From positions 19,349 through 83,348 of the IMG/VR virus record IMGVR_UViG_3300035670_000124: DNA of 64,000 nt; one strand, written 5' to 3'. Source of the DNA: a virus. The notes under the pieces were generated by a model. The model had not been told where the DNA came from. It made no database searches and saw only the letters and a list, made by a program, of their open reading frames with translations. The translations under genes and the position numbers were made by a program. Positions 6,876 through 61,546 of this stretch are shown piece after piece (positions within the stretch are counted from its first letter, which is position 1; every line of letters begins with the position of its first letter).

Positions 6876-7114
6876 TTATTCTTCGCAAAAAAGAACTCAT
6901 ATTAGTAGGCGTAATATATTATATACCAGACTACACTAATCTACTAAATGAATTTTATTGGCAGTGTGAAGACATTGTTCCAGATATGCCAAGAGTGCAT
7001 AAGTTTCTAAACTACTGGAAAGATAATATTGATGCAGTAATCAAAGAAGTTCAAGTGAGTGTTGGTAATACTTCAGAATATGTCAATGCTGACTTTTATA
7101 AGGTAATCAACTAA
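6857..7114 (+). CDS. small conserved hypothetical protein (about 80 aa)
   Basis: The frame runs past the previous stop and overlaps its end. The conserved-looking part begins at VGVIYYIPDYTNLLNEFYWQ and is aromatic and acidic. No ATG exists near the ribosome site. The only standard starts are TTG at 6857, which contains the Shine-Dalgarno-like GGGAGG itself, or a rare ATA/ATT codon at 6872/6875 placed correctly behind that site. The start is therefore unsettled. It ends with TAATG overlap into the next gene. Function unknown. Confidence 0.55.
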   Translation: MGGSNIIILRKKELILVGVIYYIPDYTNLLNEFYWQCEDIVPDMPRVHKFLNYWKDNIDAVIKEVQVSVGNTSEYVNADFYKVIN

Positions 7115-8220: not shown

Positions 8221-8738
8221 TGTCAAATCAATCAGTATTAACTAAGATTCCAGAAAACACCAGTTTTCTACAAGCAACTAAATTTACATTCTCGTTTCCT
8301 ACAATGCCTTTCTTGCGGTATTTTGCTCAAACGGCAGAAATTCCAGGCATATCAACATCACCAGTTCAGGTGCCTTCACCATTTGCCAATATGTTTAGGC
8401 ATGGTGATACATTGGTATATGATCAATTTAATATAACAGCAATCGTAGATGAAGACCTTAGAACATGGGAAGAAACTCATGATTGGTTGGTAGCATTAAC
8501 CAAACCACAAGATTACGCTCAGTATATTAGATTCTATAACGAACAAAAGACGCCATATCATGATGCAGTCCTGACGATCAATACAAACTCTAATATACAG
8601 AATATACGTATCTTATTTAAGAACTGCCATCCATATGCTCTATCTGGTATTCAGTTTGATACCAAAAACAATGCTGATAATACTATTGTCATGGATGTGA
8701 CATTTAGGTATGACTTTTTTGAGATACAAAGACTATAA
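8220..8738 (+). CDS. 3: tail completion / sheath stabiliser protein gp3-like
   Basis: The start is the ATG overlapping the upstream stop (TAATG), with GAGGAAG before it. The protein has tail-tube/terminator-like features: FTFSFPTMPF near the start, then EIPGIS, then DEDLRTWEETHDWLVALTKP (about residues 76-95), then a C-terminal beta pattern. T4 gp3 has the same DE-L...W-L core. In T4-like cyanophages gene 3 sits between 23 and uvsY, as here. Its last bases overlap the next late promoter. Confidence 0.72.
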   Translation: MSNQSVLTKIPENTSFLQATKFTFSFPTMPFLRYFAQTAEIPGISTSPVQVPSPFANMFRHGDTLVYDQFNITAIVDEDLRTWEETHDWLVALTKPQDYAQYIRFYNEQKTPYHDAVLTINTNSNIQNIRILFKNCHPYALSGIQFDTKNNADNTIVMDVTFRYDFFEIQRL

Positions 8739-8741
8739 ATA
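8734..8741 (+). promoter_or_regulatory. T4-type late promoter for GIY-YIG gene
   Basis: A perfect TATAAATA overlaps the gene 3 stop codon. The predicted start site (about six bases downstream, near 8747) coincides with the first base of a conserved hairpin. Confidence 0.8.
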
Positions 8742-8746
8742 GAAAT

Positions 8747-8800
8747 GTAGGTCACGATGCTACCAACATCTACCTACCCTAATGCTAAACAGGAGCACCA
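8747..8800 (+). promoter_or_regulatory. structured mRNA leader of GIY-YIG gene (copy 1)
   Basis: Outer stem GTAGGT (8747-8752) pairs with ACCTAC (8772-8777). Inner stem GATG (8756-8759) pairs with CATC (8767-8770), with a CAC bulge on the 5' side. A second hairpin TGCT/AGCA (8783-8786 with 8794-8797) holds the ribosome site AGGAG. The copy at 53992-54041 keeps the fold with different bases, so the pairing is supported by covariation. Confidence 0.75.
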
Positions 8801-8803
8801 GCC

Positions 8804-9404
8804 ATGTCTATTTATAAATCAAATTCATTAGAGTTCTATGTCTATGCATATCTTCGTGAAGATGGCACACCATATTATATCGGCAAAGGTAGAAATAAAA
8901 GATTGTTTAAAAAAGGGAAAAAGGAATCTATTAGCATCCCAAAAGAGAAATCAAGGATTATTATATGCGAATCAAACCTAACTGAACTTGGTGCTTTTGC
9001 TTTAGAACGCAGATTAATTCGTTGGTATGGTCGTAAAGATAATGGAACTGGGATATTGAGGAATAGAACAGACGGTGGTGATGGAACTTCTGGATATAGA
9101 ATGACAGAAAAACAAAAAAATAATATGAAAGGTAAAAACACTCAAGGTCTTAAAAATTATCATAGGAATAATCCAGATAAAAATCCAATGCGTATCCCGG
9201 CGATAAAGGATAGAAGGTAAAAAAAGATCAGAATATTATAAAAATAATCCAGATAAAAATCCAAGCAAACGCAAAGATGTAAAAGAAAAACAAAAAAATA
9301 AAAGGATTAAGTATTGGTCTGACGAAAAAAATAGAATACTACAATCACTAAGAATGAAAAAATATCACGAAGAAAAAAGAAAAAATTCAAAGATTATGAC
9401 TTGA
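8804..9404 (+). pseudogene. GIY-YIG homing endonuclease, frameshifted
   Basis: The first 138 codons encode a GIY-YIG nuclease ([43 protein letters not shown]), paralogous to 54048-54623. A TAA at 9218-9220 ends this frame just before a run of seven A. The +1 frame then continues without a break to TGA at 9402-9404 with an expected basic tail (KKRSEYYKNNPDKNPSKRK...). A one-base indel therefore probably broke the C-terminal DNA-binding part. The nuclease domain is intact and a short product could still be made. Confidence 0.8.
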
Positions 9405-12151: not shown

Positions 12152-12181
12152 TGCTTGTCAAGGTTGTCAAGAGGAAAATGT

Positions 12182-12745
12182 ATGAAACAGAAGAAAAAAG
12201 TGAAATATGTAGATAATGAAAGATTCTATCAAGAAATCATTGCATACAGAAAAAAACTGGAAGAATATAGAGCATCAGGTAGGAATGAAGAACCAAGGAT
12301 GCCAGACTATATCGGTGAATGTATCTGGAAGATTGCAGATCGTTTATCCATGAAGCCCTGCTTTGTGAATTACTCATACAGAGATGAAATGGTTTCAGAC
12401 GGCATAGAAAACTGCATTCTATACTTCAAGGATTATAATCCTGCTATCGGTCAGAACCCTTTCGCATACTTTACACAGATCATCTACTATGCTTTTCTTC
12501 GTCGTATAAGTAAAGAAGAGAAGAATCGATATATAATCTATAAGAATTTTCAAGAGACAATGACACAACTTTATGAGTCTAAAGATTCTGAAGATGGACA
12601 GTTGATTTCTTCCACACTATATGATAACATACATCAGTTTATGAGAAAGTTTGAGAAGAAAGAAGAACTTAAAAAAGAAAAGCGTAAGAATGCGAAAGTA
12701 GGCTTACAGAAATTTTATGAGGAAGACAATGGAAAGAGAGAGTAA
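12182..12745 (+). CDS. 55: late-transcription sigma factor gp55
   Basis: gp55 directs host RNA polymerase to TATAAATA late promoters, of which several lie in this window. The motif NYSYRDEMVSDGIENCILYF followed by NPFAYFTQIIYYAFLRRI (about residues 68-113) is the hallmark of the family and matches T4 gp55 closely. I start it at the ATG behind AGAGGAAA, giving 187 residues (T4: 185). An upstream in-frame TTG is less likely. The C-terminus is highly charged. Confidence 0.96.
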   Translation: MKQKKKVKYVDNERFYQEIIAYRKKLEEYRASGRNEEPRMPDYIGECIWKIADRLSMKPCFVNYSYRDEMVSDGIENCILYFKDYNPAIGQNPFAYFTQIIYYAFLRRISKEEKNRYIIYKNFQETMTQLYESKDSEDGQLISSTLYDNIHQFMRKFEKKEELKKEKRKNAKVGLQKFYEEDNGKRE

Positions 12746-30551: not shown

Positions 30552-30582
30552 TTGACAACTCAATAAAAATGTATTATAAATA
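30552..30582 (+). promoter_or_regulatory. combined early and late promoter of hsp20
   Basis: TTGACA (30552-30557) lies 17 bases before TATAAA (30575-30580), a host-type promoter. The same bases form a perfect TATAAATA late element (30575-30582). The ~90-base leader that follows can form an ATAAGG/CCTTAT helix. Confidence 0.8.
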
Positions 30583-48629: not shown

Positions 48630-49097
48630 ATGTCTAATGTTATACCTTACCCGACTATGCCCAAAGGAAAGAGACCTTTGGGCATCAAGCATTCTCGTTA
48701 TATCAATATGCTATCCAAACTTGCAGCAGATGTTGTAACACCAGCAGTCAATAATGCTCGTCTTGCTGCATGTGTAGTATATAAGAATGATGTCGTGTCG
48801 TTTGGTGTGAATGAGATGAAATCGCATCCATTTCAAGCACGATATGGTAAGAACAAAGACTCTGTTTATCTTCACGCAGAAACTTCTGCTATCAAAAATG
48901 CACTTAAGTATATAACTCAGGATGAACTAGAAAATTCAACTCTCTATATTTGCAGGGTCAAGTATCACGATTTCACCAAGACCAAGATGATCTTTGGTCT
49001 GTCTAAACCGTGTCCTGGCTGTTTTAGGTGCATCAACACCTTCAACATCAAAAGAGTTATATATACACTTGACAATGAAGGGTATGCTATGCTATGA
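48630..49097 (+). CDS. cytidine/deoxycytidylate deaminase-like protein
   Basis: Zinc-deaminase motifs HAETSAIKNAL (His and catalytic Glu, ~residues 83-93) and CPGCFRC (~126-132, the Cys pair) are present, with the N-terminal core LAACVVYKNDVVSFGVNE. It may deaminate dCMP to dUMP for dTMP synthesis, together with the dUTPase here. The exact substrate is not certain. The 3' end contains the next promoter. Confidence 0.8.
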   Translation: MSNVIPYPTMPKGKRPLGIKHSRYINMLSKLAADVVTPAVNNARLAACVVYKNDVVSFGVNEMKSHPFQARYGKNKDSVYLHAETSAIKNALKYITQDELENSTLYICRVKYHDFTKTKMIFGLSKPCPGCFRCINTFNIKRVIYTLDNEGYAML

Positions 49098-49098
49098 T
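49069..49098 (+). promoter_or_regulatory. sigma70-type promoter inside the deaminase 3' end
   Basis: TTGACA (49069-49074), 18 bases, TATGAT (49093-49098), followed by AAGGAGA before the next gene. Confidence 0.75.
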
Positions 49099-49307: not shown

Positions 49308-49713
49308 TATTATTTTACTATGGTTGGCAGTTCCTGCAATTGCCAACCCATACCCATATAAAGTTACCCGTGTTATTGATGGTGATACAATTGAGATTGA
49401 AGTAGATTTCCTTCCACCAGAATTGGGTAATAAACTAAAAGTTAGAATTTTGGGTGTGGATACAGCAGAAAAAGGAGGACTTGCTAAATGTGAGAAAGAG
49501 AAAAAGACTTCAGCAGATGCAAAGCATTTTGTTGAAGAAATGATTTCCAGGTCTTTGGATATCGCTGTAGAAATTAAGAAGTGGGACAAATATGGCGGCA
49601 GAGTATTAGGTGACATTGTATTGGATGGTAAAAAACTATCTGTCATTCTATTGGAAAACAACTTTGCTGTGTCCTATGAAGGTAAAAGAAAGATAAAGGA
49701 TTGGTGTAAATGA
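49252..49713 (+). CDS. secreted thermonuclease-like nuclease (153 aa)
   Basis: The N-terminus (FWSSIILLWLAVPAIANPYP) is a signal peptide with likely cleavage after AIA. The SNase fold follows: VTRVIDGDTIEIEVD (with Asp), RILGVDTAEKGG (catalytic Arg/Asp/Glu) and DKYGGRVLGDI (second catalytic Arg, ~residue 115). It probably degrades nucleic acid in the periplasm, perhaps DNA of competing phages. The start overlaps the previous gene, so either coupling or a later start must be considered. Confidence 0.82.
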   Translation: MKIQPFQFIKNNRSYFWSSIILLWLAVPAIANPYPYKVTRVIDGDTIEIEVDFLPPELGNKLKVRILGVDTAEKGGLAKCEKEKKTSADAKHFVEEMISRSLDIAVEIKKWDKYGGRVLGDIVLDGKKLSVILLENNFAVSYEGKRKIKDWCK

Positions 49714-50195
49714 AGAAACTACTTTTGGCTCTAACACTACTTGCAGTATCATCAACTTCAACACTTGCCGATGAATGGGCATCAAATTGGAGTTCTGGGA
49801 AACCATTTGCAAGGAGTGCAACAGTATCAGACGGGCAATTCACATTCAAGAAGACTAAGAAAACTCGTCCAGTTACAGTTCGGGATATTCCAATTGTTGG
49901 TGACATTGTTCGTGGTATGGAGCAGGGAATTGCTTCTTTTTATTGGCAACCACAAGGAGTTGCGTGTGGTGGTCGTTTCAATCCAGAAGCAATGACAGCA
50001 GCATCAAAACATTTGAAGTGTGGCACCAGAGTAAGAGTCACAAATAGAAATAATGGAAAATCTGTAGTTGTAACTATTAATGACCGTGGGCCATATATCA
50101 AAGGTCGTATCATTGATTTATCTAAAGCAGCGGCTCGCCAAATTGATATGATTAAAAATGGCGTAGTTCCTGTGACTGTAGAGGTTATTAATTAA
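49710..50195 (+). CDS. RlpA-like double-psi beta-barrel protein with signal peptide
   Basis: MKKLLLALTLLAVSSTSTLA is a signal peptide. The C-terminal RlpA domain has GIASFYW...GVACGGRFNPEAMTAASKHLKCGTRVRV, VTINDRGPYIKGRIIDLSKAAA (Asp of the lytic site). RlpA proteins are periplasmic lytic transglycosylases for peptidoglycan. Overlaps the nuclease gene by 4 bases. It may assist lysis or entry, or modify the wall of the infected cell. Confidence 0.85.
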   Translation: MKKLLLALTLLAVSSTSTLADEWASNWSSGKPFARSATVSDGQFTFKKTKKTRPVTVRDIPIVGDIVRGMEQGIASFYWQPQGVACGGRFNPEAMTAASKHLKCGTRVRVTNRNNGKSVVVTINDRGPYIKGRIIDLSKAAARQIDMIKNGVVPVTVEVIN

Positions 50196-50199
50196 TATG

Positions 50200-50257
50200 T
50201 CCCGCAAGGTAAAGAATTATGATATTATAAATATTCAACAAACTTTACCTTGCGGGA
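50200..50257 (+). promoter_or_regulatory. 15-bp inverted repeat with a late promoter in its loop
   Basis: TCCCGCAAGGTAAAG (50200-50214) is the exact reverse complement of CTTTACCTTGCGGGA (50243-50257). The 28-base loop holds TATAAATA (50226-50233), and the right arm covers the ribosome site of the next gene. Read-through RNA would hide that site. Late RNA starting near 50239 would lack the left arm. Confidence 0.88.
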
Positions 50258-50264
50258 GAATATT

Positions 50265-50993
50265 ATGAACTATATTAAAATATACAACTCTATTATCGAT
50301 AGGGCGTCTAAAAGAAATAAAACAAAAAATGACGGATTACACAGACATAGAATATTACCAGGGTTTGAAAACGGTTTATATGAAGAAAGTAACATTTGCC
50401 TTTTAACGAGAAAAGAGCATAGAATAATACACAAATTGAGGTGGAAAATTTATGGAAAATGGCAAGATTTATCTTCTTATGTTAAATTGGGCGGCAAAAA
50501 CTGTGACCCTTGGAATAAAGGGATAAAAACTGGCCAAATCCCTTGGAATAAAAATAAAAATACAAAATTTTTAGGTATGTCATATGAAGAAATATATGGC
50601 AAAGAAAAAGCATCTTACATAAAAGAAATGAGAAAGGATCAACTACAAAAATATAATCATTTACAAACAAAAATTGTCAAAGAAAAAAGAAAAAAATCTA
50701 TAATATCATATTATGAAAATAATGAGTCGAAATTGAAAAATGTTAAAAAAAGCGATGAAACTAAGAAAAAATTATCTATTTCTATGAAAAATAAGTCCCT
50801 GAAAGAAAGATGTAATTTGACAGATGAAGAATATGTTGCAGTTAAAAAAGAAATGTCACAGAGAGCAATGGGGAATAAAAGCACTAAAGGTAAAAAATGG
50901 TTTAATAACGGAAAGACAAATAGATTGTTTTTCCCGAACGAAGTTCCAGATTCCTCTTGGGAACACGGAAGAATAAAAATTATTGACAGCTAA
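50265..50993 (+). CDS. HNH/His-Me finger homing endonuclease with NUMOD motif
   Basis: The ATG behind GCGGGAG is preferred to 50250. GLHRHRILPGFENGLYEESN followed by LLTRKEHRIIHKLRWKIYG (residues ~28-67) is the phage His-Me/HNH mobile nuclease core. A NUMOD3-like SDETKKKLSISMKNKS (~168-183) and a C-terminal KKWFNNGKTNRLFF segment would bind DNA. Its late-promoter/hairpin leader is typical of homing genes. It separates the RlpA gene from the following small genes. Confidence 0.82.
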   Translation: MNYIKIYNSIIDRASKRNKTKNDGLHRHRILPGFENGLYEESNICLLTRKEHRIIHKLRWKIYGKWQDLSSYVKLGGKNCDPWNKGIKTGQIPWNKNKNTKFLGMSYEEIYGKEKASYIKEMRKDQLQKYNHLQTKIVKEKRKKSIISYYENNESKLKNVKKSDETKKKLSISMKNKSLKERCNLTDEEYVAVKKEMSQRAMGNKSTKGKKWFNNGKTNRLFFPNEVPDSSWEHGRIKIIDS

Positions 50994-51011
50994 GCAATCA
51001 TATGGTATGAT
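50983..51011 (+). promoter_or_regulatory. sigma70-type promoter
   Basis: TTGACA (50983-50988), 17 bases, TATGAT (51006-51011), overlapping the end of the endonuclease gene and serving 51043. Confidence 0.83.
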
Positions 51012-53945: not shown

Positions 53946-53973
53946 AAATCTTTGATATAAAATTATAAAATTA

Positions 53974-53981
53974 TATAAATA
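53974..53981 (+). promoter_or_regulatory. T4-type late promoter for GIY-YIG gene
   Basis: Perfect TATAAATA. The predicted start near 53987 lies just before the conserved hairpin at 53992. Confidence 0.82.
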
Positions 53982-53991
53982 GGCATGTAAT

Positions 53992-54041
53992 GTGGTTCAC
54001 GAGACGGCAATCTCCAACCACCCTAATACTTACAGGAGTAT
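53992..54041 (+). promoter_or_regulatory. structured mRNA leader of GIY-YIG gene (copy 2)
   Basis: GTGGTT (53992-53997) pairs with AACCAC (54016-54021). After the same CAC bulge, GAGA (54001-54004) pairs with TCTC (54011-54014). ATACT (54026-54030) pairs with AGTAT (54037-54041) around the ribosome site. Same fold as 8747-8800 with compensating base changes. Confidence 0.78.
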
Positions 54042-54047
54042 CAGCAC

Positions 54048-54623
54048 ATGCCTATTTATAAATCAAATTCATTAGAGTTTTATGTTTATGCTTATCTTAG
54101 AGAAGATGGTACGCCTTACTATATTGGTAAAGGAAAATGTAATAGAGCATGGTTAAAGAAAAATAGAGATAAACAGAAACCACCAAAAAACAAATCAAGA
54201 ATTGTCATATGTGAGTCGAACTTAACTGAGTTAGGTGCTTTTGCCCTTGAACGAAGACTTATTAGATGGTACGGTCGTAAAGATAATGGCACTGGAATAT
54301 TAAGAAATAGAACAGATGGTGGCGAAGGTGGTTCTGGTTCAATCCGCAGTGTTGAAAGCAAAAAGAATTTATCAAAAATTAGAAAAGGTAAAAATTTGTC
54401 TGAAGAAACAAAGAAAAAAATATCAGAATCAACAAAAGGTAAGAAAAATCATTTTTTTGGAAAAAAACATTCAGAAGAAACAAAATTAAAATTAACAGGA
54501 AGAAAACTGAGTGAAGAAACAAAAAGAAAAATGTCCAGTTCAAAAAAAGGTATTATCCCATGGAACAAAGGGAAAATATTAAAACGAAAAGACGAATCTA
54601 GTAAAATAGAAACAATGACATGA
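54048..54623 (+). CDS. GIY-YIG homing endonuclease
   Basis: Intact paralog of the broken gene at 8804: [20 protein letters not shown] (residues 9-28), [20 protein letters not shown] (conserved Arg and Glu, ~60-80), [10 protein letters not shown], then three NUMOD3 repeats ([14 protein letters not shown] and similar). 191 residues. It starts with the same [11 protein letters not shown] and shares its leader RNA. It overlaps the lipase-like gene by four bases. Confidence 0.92.
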
Positions 54624-60008: not shown

Positions 60009-60161
60009 ATGTTAGAATGTAAAAAATGCAATTGGAAATCTTCTCTGTTAAATCCAAAAGAATTGCAAGAATTGGGTGTTCCTTGGTATTGTGAAAATTG
60101 TGGAAACAGGGTTACACATTTTCATAAAGGAACTTTGGAAGAATTTGAAAAAAGTAATTGA
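60009..60161 (+). CDS. zinc-ribbon protein (50 aa)
   Basis: CKKCNWKSSLLNPKELQELGVPWYCENCGNRV gives two CxxC knuckles. An in-frame ATG at 59982 would add nine residues. Neither start has a clear ribosome site. The stop overlaps the next -35. Confidence 0.55.
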   Translation: MLECKKCNWKSSLLNPKELQELGVPWYCENCGNRVTHFHKGTLEEFEKSN

Positions 60162-60196
60162 CACCAATTAGATTTTGTGGTACAATACTACAGAAT
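60158..60196 (+). promoter_or_regulatory. sigma70-type promoter, duplicated cassette copy 1
   Basis: TTGACA (60158-60163), 17 bases, TACAAT (60181-60186), then ACTACAGAAT. The whole 39 bases recur unchanged at 60524-60562. Confidence 0.88.
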
Positions 60197-60212: not shown

Positions 60213-60527
60213 ATGATAACATATCATGCTAATTTTATGGGACCAATAAATTTTGAATGGTTTGAAAAAAGAGGTCTAGTCAAAAATGAAAATGGACGAA
60301 ATGTCATAACTGAATCATGGGGTGGTGGTAGAATAGATGTTTATGGTACAAATGAACCATATGGAATGGAAATATTACTGCCTATTATGGATGGTCTAAG
60401 TTTCTTAGGGTTTTCTCAATGGTTATGGAATTTCAAAACTGAAACTGTCTACACATTAGAACAATTAGTAGAAGAATATGAAAAGACCAATTCAAAAATA
60501 ATATGGGCACATCAAGTTTGGCCTTGA
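60213..60527 (+). CDS. hypothetical protein (104 aa)
   Basis: ATG after GAAAGGGTGTGTG. Aromatic, mixed fold (YHANFMGPINFEWFEKRGLV; WGGGRIDVYGTNEPYGMEIL; FSQWLWNFKTETVYTLEQL). Flanked by two identical promoters. The stop codon is part of the next -35. Unrecognised. Confidence 0.55.
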   Translation: MITYHANFMGPINFEWFEKRGLVKNENGRNVITESWGGGRIDVYGTNEPYGMEILLPIMDGLSFLGFSQWLWNFKTETVYTLEQLVEEYEKTNSKIIWAHQVWP

Positions 60528-60562
60528 CACCAATTAGATTTTGTGGTACAATACTACAGAAT
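60524..60562 (+). promoter_or_regulatory. sigma70-type promoter, duplicated cassette copy 2
   Basis: TTGACA (60524-60529), 17 bases, TACAAT (60547-60552), ahead of the broken phosphoesterase gene. Identical to 60158-60196. Confidence 0.88.
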
Positions 60563-60579: not shown

Positions 60580-61500
60580 ATGAAAGGAAACATTATGGAT
60601 AAAGGAAGGAGGTTGGTCGGAGATAAGAAGCTAAAAGTTAGCTATGTCTCCGACCTTTAGCTTCACGCAGAGTTTTTGAACTATCCTAATCTTCATGATG
60701 ATCAGGGTGGAGATGTTCTTATTTTGGCAGGTGATATCTTTACTGCCAATATGGTTGCTCCACATCGTACTGATGCAGATTCAAAGAAGATTAAGAAGTG
60801 GTTGAACGGTCCATTCAAGGAGTTTATTTCCAAGTATCGACAGGTTCTGTATGTAATGGGCAACCATGAGCATTACTCTTCCATTTACAAGAATACTATT
60901 CCTGATATCAAGACATTCTTGACTAACAACAAGTTCAATAATATCATGGTAATGGAGAATGATTATCTAGATTTTGATGGTGTTCGGTTTATTGGTGCAA
61001 CTCTATGGACTGATTATAAGAAGGGTAATCCACTAACAATGGAGATTGTTGAGCGTGGAATGAATGATTATAACATGATTGGTCTTCATACTGTTGCGGA
61101 CATGAACTATTTCAATCGTAGGCATAACCGAAAGATCAATCCTCAGTTTATATTGGATGTTCATCTGGAGTCTGTTTCTTATATCTACGAGAAGGCAAAC
61201 GATACTGATCTTCCAGTAGTTGTTCTCACTCATCATGCACCAAGTTTCAAGTCTATCGATCCAGTTCATGTTTCTGGAGGAATTTATGGCACTGATGATT
61301 TGAATGGAGCATATGCTTCAGACTTGTCTTCTGTGATTCTGGATTCTCCTAATATCAAGTTCTGGATTCATGGACACACGCATCATACGGTAGATTATCC
61401 AATCGGAGAGTGCCGTATTCTCAGTAATCAGCGTGGTTATTCGTTTGAGGCATGTGCTCGACATTTTGGTGGCACAAAAAGTTTTGATATTGGGGCTTGA
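60580..61500 (+). pseudogene. metallophosphoesterase gene with an in-frame UAG in motif I
   Basis: From ATG 60580 the frame encodes ...KLKVSYVSDL, then TAG (60658-60660), then LHAEFLNYPN and the rest without a break. The expected motif I is SDLHAEF, so a six-base insertion (about 60656-60661) separates Asp from His and adds a stop. The remaining motifs are intact: AGDIF, GNHEHYS (~residue 60 after the stop), HHAPS and HGHTHH. Unless UAG is read through, the protein restarting near TTG 60676 lacks a metal ligand. Confidence 0.72.
60615..60664 (+). other. overlapping inverted repeats at the phosphoesterase start
   Basis: GGTCGGAGA (60615-60623) pairs with TCTCCGACC (60647-60655). GAAGCTAAA (60627-60635) pairs with TTTAGCTTC (60656-60664). 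AGCTAA (60629-60634) can instead pair with TTAGCT (60638-60643). The strong Shine-Dalgarno AAGGAGG ends right before the first arm. Confidence 0.7.
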
Positions 61501-61525
61501 CATCCCCAATATCATGTGCTATAAT
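61497..61525 (+). promoter_or_regulatory. sigma70-type promoter, cassette family member
   Basis: TTGACA (61497-61502), 17 bases, TATAAT (61520-61525), followed by ACTACAGAATCGGGAAAGG, the same downstream segment as in the duplicated promoters. Confidence 0.9.
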
Positions 61526-61546
61526 ACTACAGAATCGGGAAAGGGC

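Follow-up and report, generated by a model that had tools for sequence, protein, structure and literature searches.

We have identified a perfect inverted repeat directly before a homing endonuclease gene of a distant T4-like phage, and we consider it likely, with a probability of about 0.8, that the RNA hairpin modelled from this repeat is a timing switch which holds the endonuclease gene off early and lets it be expressed late. The repeat encloses a late promoter element, and its 3' arm lies on the ribosome site of the gene. What has been directly established are the sequence elements, the gene for a gp55 homologue, the enrichment of the promoter element upstream of genes, the folds as predicted, and the fact that related genes repeat the arrangement. 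The mechanism class itself is already known. What is new here is that HNH homing genes repeat it with unrelated sequences, together with a family of GIY-YIG leaders.

The window, that is the whole stretch of 64,000 nucleotides that was analysed, comes from a virus contig of 83,348 bases. It carries T4-type genes for a head scaffold (2856), a major head protein (4129), UvsY (9457), a late sigma factor homologous to gp55 (12155..12745, plus strand; phrog_234, E 1.7e-53), UvsX (45181) and a gp41-like DnaB helicase (46502). At the DNA level the phage collection matched only in helicase-like stretches, with about 65-70% identity and mostly in cyanophages. Because of this restricted similarity and the T4-type genes that it carries, we regard the phage as a distant T4-like phage. 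The first-pass annotation had called it a distant phage, which holds for its distance from T4, as only helicase-like DNA is matched, but its genes still place it among the T4-like phages.

The hairpin and its promoters

The two arms of the repeat, TCCCGCAAGGTAAAG at 50200..50214 and CTTTACCTTGCGGGA at 50243..50257 (plus strand), are 100% complementary over 15 bp and are separated by a loop of 28 nt. With TATAAATA at 50226..50233 lying within this loop, the earlier description of perfect 15-base arms around a promoter-bearing loop is confirmed. The 3' arm overlies the GGGA of the Shine-Dalgarno sequence GGGAG (50254..50258, plus strand), whose last G falls just beyond the arm and which stands 6 nt before the endonuclease ATG at 50265. 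The predicted fold adds six outer pairs (about 50193-50198 with 50260-50265), which cover the spacer and the A of the AUG. The predicted fold energy of the read-through RNA is -30 kcal/mol, whereas shuffled sequences average -9.8 (z -7.2), and none of the 200 shuffles reached this value. With GGGA in the 3' arm, this agrees with the proposal that read-through RNA would fold over GGGAG. An RNA starting in the loop is close to shuffled sequence in its fold energy, with z values of about -1.0 and +0.3 for the two lengths that were folded.

Perfect inverted repeats of 15 bp that enclose a loop of 3-60 nt are rare. The window has two of them (arms at 50200/50243 and at 53974/54046), both of which adjoin homing genes and contain TATAAATA, while 60 Markov shuffles of the window yielded 0. 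Inverted repeats of 12 bp are found seven times in the window, compared to a shuffle mean of 0.42. The hairpin site is represented by one metagenome contig; a second assembly spanning the site was looked for and none was found. An exact search of viral contigs with the 3' arm plus the following G returned six unrelated single-arm matches and no second copy of the hairpin. The search for relatives of the upstream rlpA-like protein returned one contig, which is 100% identical to the phage and ends before the hairpin site.

T4 late promoters carry TATAAATA at -13 to -6 (PMC1524935) and require gp55 (PMC2988020), of which this phage has a homologue. In the contig, 10 of the 13 plus-strand copies of TATAAATA precede an ORF of 80 aa or more by 20-110 nt, where 10.9% would be expected from the share of the contig that such positions occupy. 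One copy precedes the head scaffold gene by 34 bases, and another precedes a virion structural gene by 39 bases. The placement of these copies supports the view that TATAAATA acts as a promoter element of this phage. The T4 spacing rule sets the predicted late transcription start at about 50239 (50237..50241, plus strand), 4 nt before the 3' arm, and late RNA would therefore be without the 5' arm. The gp55 gene, the computed enrichment upstream of ORFs and the T4 spacing rule all speak for the late promoter that had been proposed for the loop. Elsewhere in the window, at 30552-30582, a late TATAAATA overlaps a sigma70-like promoter (TTGACA-17-TATAAA) ahead of an Hsp20-like gene, which makes a dual early/late promoter possible at that site.

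A candidate source of early RNA is a strong sigma70-like promoter, TTGACA-18-TATGAT, at 49069..49098 (plus strand). It precedes an SNase-like gene, an RlpA-like (DPBB/lytic transglycosylase) gene at 49710..50195 (plus strand; PF03330, E 5.3e-28) and the endonuclease gene. RNA from 49098 could reach the hairpin, since the next equally good promoter is only found at 50983 (TTGACA-17-TATGAT, 50983..51011, plus strand). This second promoter is that of the next gene, for which the search found no relatives, and it overlaps the end of the endonuclease gene. Between the promoter at 49069-49098 and the hairpin there is only a weak terminator-like match, at 49919-49936. Sigma70-like sites of this quality are found 14 times on the plus strand of the window, compared to 2.6 times on both strands of shuffled sequence. 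Three further sigma70-like promoters, at window positions 60158-60196, 60524-60562 and 61497-61535, are each followed by the same ACTACAGAAT, which suggests a repeated early-promoter cassette.

In the switch that we propose, RNA from the early promoter would run through the rlpA-like gene into the endonuclease leader. This read-through RNA would form the 15-bp hairpin, extended to about 21 bp, which would hide the ribosome site, and little endonuclease would be made early. Once the late sigma factor has been made, polymerase would start at TATAAATA in the loop, and the resulting RNA, beginning at about 50239 and lacking the 5' arm, would be translated. The start sites, the early read-through and the translational repression are the steps that we infer.

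To express the strength of the switch as a number, we calculated what it costs in free energy to hold the start region (-14 to +3) open, both in the long RNA and in the predicted late RNA. For the 50265 gene this opening cost is 19.5 kcal/mol in the read-through RNA and 3.5 kcal/mol in the late RNA (z 7.4), and 0 of 50 shuffles of the upstream part were as extreme; the measure and its cut-off were fixed after some examples, including this gene, had been seen. The low predicted cost and the shuffle-like fold of the late RNA fit the earlier expectation that late RNA would be free. For T4 genes the cost falls from 14.3 to 4.9 kcal/mol for I-TevI, from 16.4 to 5.6 kcal/mol for segB, and from 15.3 to 4.7 or 1.9 kcal/mol for gene e. 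The truncated T4 I-TevIII, which has been reported to be hairpin-gated, gave no score at its annotated start, and T4 mobE, mobD and segG have no late motif at that position before the start. We also considered a late-motif hairpin at the 40566 homing gene, and rejected it as weak (8.4 to 7.0 kcal/mol).

Related HNH homing genes and rival explanations

An alignment search with this endonuclease and its relatives gave 80 loci. Genes in these loci were assigned to the HNH group by BLAST against the query set, and the group includes at least two genes (L124 and L015) which are not of the MNYxKIY type. Among genes whose start has a late motif no more than 60 bases away, the opening cost drops by at least 6 kcal/mol in 14 of 28 HNH-group genes versus 2 of 49 other genes (Fisher p 3.6e-6), where the other genes are drawn from the same loci as the HNH genes and are only in part late genes. 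The excess holds at cut-offs from 4 to 10 kcal/mol, with p values of 1e-6 to 3e-4 for cut-offs from 5 to 10. It is also seen when only the strict TATAAATA is accepted (10/17 HNH versus 0/18 other genes; p 1.1e-4) and when z > 3 is required relative to shuffles of the promoter's upstream sequence (9/28 versus 2/49; p 0.0013). The strongest of the non-homing controls is a 122-aa gene at 1759 of L125, with the motif CTAAATA and a start region that is buried in the long RNA only (18.1 to 1.4 kcal/mol).

The position of the late promoter varies among these leaders. It lies within the loop, for instance, at L156, L159, L182, L006 and L007, and at the edge of the stem or in the stem at L137 and L172. 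The 14 positive leaders have nearly no sequence similarity to each other, with two weak pairs above the 99.5% shuffle level. As they share almost no sequence, the arms appear either to be newly made at each site or to drift fast under a pairing constraint. The recurrence of the arrangement with unrelated arm sequences suggests that it has been selected for.

Some of the individual loci have features of their own. At L159 (1544-3758) an HNH homing gene with its late promoter in the loop of a 13-bp hairpin is flanked on either side by one apparent half of a split intein, which belongs to a UvsX/RecA-like gene. The homing-gene hairpin of L156 (about 25-107) directly follows the apparent 5' half of a tRNA gene, which recalls T4 segB among the tRNA genes. 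In L126 an HNH homing gene is immediately preceded by the hairpin TAGGTACAC/GTGTACCTA, in the leader before 2501. No late motif could be recognised there, and it is possible that this homing gene is under another timing control.

The comparison with related loci also helps to weigh other explanations of the repeat. An unlikely one is translational coupling, in which ribosomes would restart at an ATG at 50197, melt the hairpin and re-initiate at the ATG at 50265, giving low early expression that depends on upstream translation. A short ORF of 23 codons plus stop (50197..50268, plus strand) does run across the hairpin; it starts 1 nt after the rlpA-like stop and overlaps the endonuclease start as ATGA, and coupling is one suggestion for T4 mobE, where the start overlaps the stop of nrdA (PMC2988022). 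However, an open frame of 23 codons is not rare by chance, and ATG 50197 is not preceded by a good ribosome site at normal spacing. L159 and L135 have the same geometry without an ORF across the hairpin, so coupling does not belong to the common design. The position of a strong stem directly after a stop codon would also suit a terminator or an mRNA-end or processing element of the upstream gene, with the late motif being incidental. We find this very improbable, given the 28 nt loop, the lack of a T run after the stem on either strand, the absence of the stem from the terminator-like sites, the placement of the 3' arm on the ribosome site and the enrichment of the arrangement at homing genes.

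The repeat might instead be a DNA site, for example an operator through which the endonuclease represses its own late promoter, with RNA folding being secondary. There is precedent in I-TevI, and probably in I-TevII and I-TevIII, which bind operators overlapping their own promoters (PMC2988022). The arms described here lie outside the promoter, though, and homologous endonucleases have arms of unrelated sequence, as a conserved binding site would not, so that an operator also seems a very doubtful explanation. A chance repeat, or a chimeric assembly which created an artificial one, deserves mention as a single metagenome contig covers the site. Independent contigs with the same geometry, and the lack of any such perfect repeat in the shuffled windows, make this extremely unlikely. 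Among these readings we prefer the timing switch.

Known hairpin-gated genes

A hairpin over the ribosome site in early RNA, combined with a late promoter whose RNA omits the 5' half of the hairpin, has been described for I-TevI, I-TevII, I-TevIII, segB, Aeh1 mobE, gene e and soc (PMC2988022, PMC3014915). The statement of the first-pass annotation that T4 uses this logic for I-TevI and other homing genes is thus in line with the literature, and I-TevI and segB were recovered by our opening-energy measure. The 50265 locus has a homing endonuclease gene, a gp55-type late promoter and a late sigma factor in common with the class of I-TevI, segB and Aeh1 mobE. It is furthermore predicted to have a read-through RNA that buries the ribosome site and a late RNA that frees it. 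Our sequence and folding results support its membership of this known class of hairpin-gated late homing genes of T4-like phages.

The closest known systems each differ from the 50265 gene in some respect. For T4 I-TevI, too, a hairpin buries the ribosome site in early/middle read-through RNA, and late RNA is without the 5' half of this hairpin (PMC2988022, PMC3014915), but I-TevI is a GIY-YIG enzyme encoded in the td intron and its promoter overlaps the 5' arm, whereas the 50265 gene is free-standing and HNH-type. T4 segB is likewise a free-standing homing gene with a late motif and a hairpin over the ribosome site; it differs in being a GIY-YIG gene in a tRNA cluster, with the promoter variant CATAAATA and unrelated sequence. 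The mobE gene of Aeromonas phage Aeh1 is an HNH homing gene with a hairpin sequestering its ribosome site, a likeness that is taken from the description in PMC2988022, and it is inserted within nrdA. T4 gene e (lysozyme) is translated only late, by means of a promoter placed within a hairpin (PMC3014915), but it is a lysis gene with two late promoters and not a homing gene. While the late promoter usually overlaps the 5' arm in T4, the element at 50226-50233 is wholly within the loop. We therefore see a variation on the T4 logic here, and not merely the especially clean form of it that had been claimed.

GIY-YIG leaders and the endonuclease protein

Two GIY-YIG homing genes of the window each have an inverted repeat at their start, with TATAAATA located in its 5' arm and the start codon in its 3' arm. 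One is found at 8804..9220 (plus strand; GIY-YIG motif recognised by eye, phrog_15526 of unknown function, E 6.1e-22), with a leader at 8734..8816 (plus strand; 8733-8824 in its wider extent) that contains two inner hairpins. The other, which also has NUMOD3 repeats, is at 54048..54623 (plus strand), and its leader at 53974..54060 (plus strand; 53973-54068 in its wider extent) follows the same plan with a perfect 15-bp closing helix. A third such leader is located at 6967-7057 of the contig (L017). Relatives have in common about 70 bases in which the late motif is followed by a hairpin GTAGG..CCTAC with an inner GAGA..TCTC stem, and then, in order, by CTCTAAC, a small hairpin with AGGAG, CAGC and the ATG.

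The alignment of 38 GIY-YIG leaders has 13 pairs, 12 of which show compensatory changes. A covariance model of the leader matches in Variovorax phage V45v66 and Pseudoalteromonas phage vB_Psh_XG4 and has no match in T4. Rfam 15 has no family at these leaders, and we found no description of them in open-licence papers. The leader could be a new RNA family, and it is possibly more novel than the hairpin switch of the 50265 gene. The late start is predicted to fall close to the first hairpin, and late RNA would be without the closing helix. The opening cost falls from 15.9 to 4.4 kcal/mol for the 54048 gene and from 5.8 to 3.7 kcal/mol for the 8804 gene. As the computed gain is large only for 54048, the GIY-YIG leader fits the same switch logic only in part.

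Taking the HNH and GIY-YIG genes together, we lean somewhat towards the hypothesis that late-only translation is a general and repeatedly evolved property of T4-like homing genes. HNH genes would gain a new, unrelated hairpin at each locus, while the GIY-YIG family would carry a conserved, covarying and so far undescribed leader RNA. If this is true, the origin of a perfect inverted repeat at every newly occupied locus would need an explanation. The proposed switch of the 50265 gene would extend the early-off and late-on logic of T4 for selfish endonuclease genes to uncultured T4-like phages, and it lets timing be predicted from sequence alone. A simple scan for a late motif together with a start region that is buried only in the longer RNA could be used to look for late-gated genes in environmental phage genomes.

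The protein encoded at 50265..50993 (plus strand) has 242 aa and an HNH-type N-terminus (phrog_655, E 4.6e-16), and is 24-36% identical to named and environmental relatives. A Pfam search with it gave no HNH match. In the alignment, the HHxxP motif of the relatives reads HRILP in this protein while N43, H52 and H56 are retained, so that the catalytic motif HH..N..H has lost one histidine. In colicin-type HNH nucleases the second histidine of HHxxP is the general base. With this residue replaced, the endonuclease activity may be lost or changed. With its leader intact, the enzyme may be catalytically altered or dead, and the regulatory switch may have outlived it.
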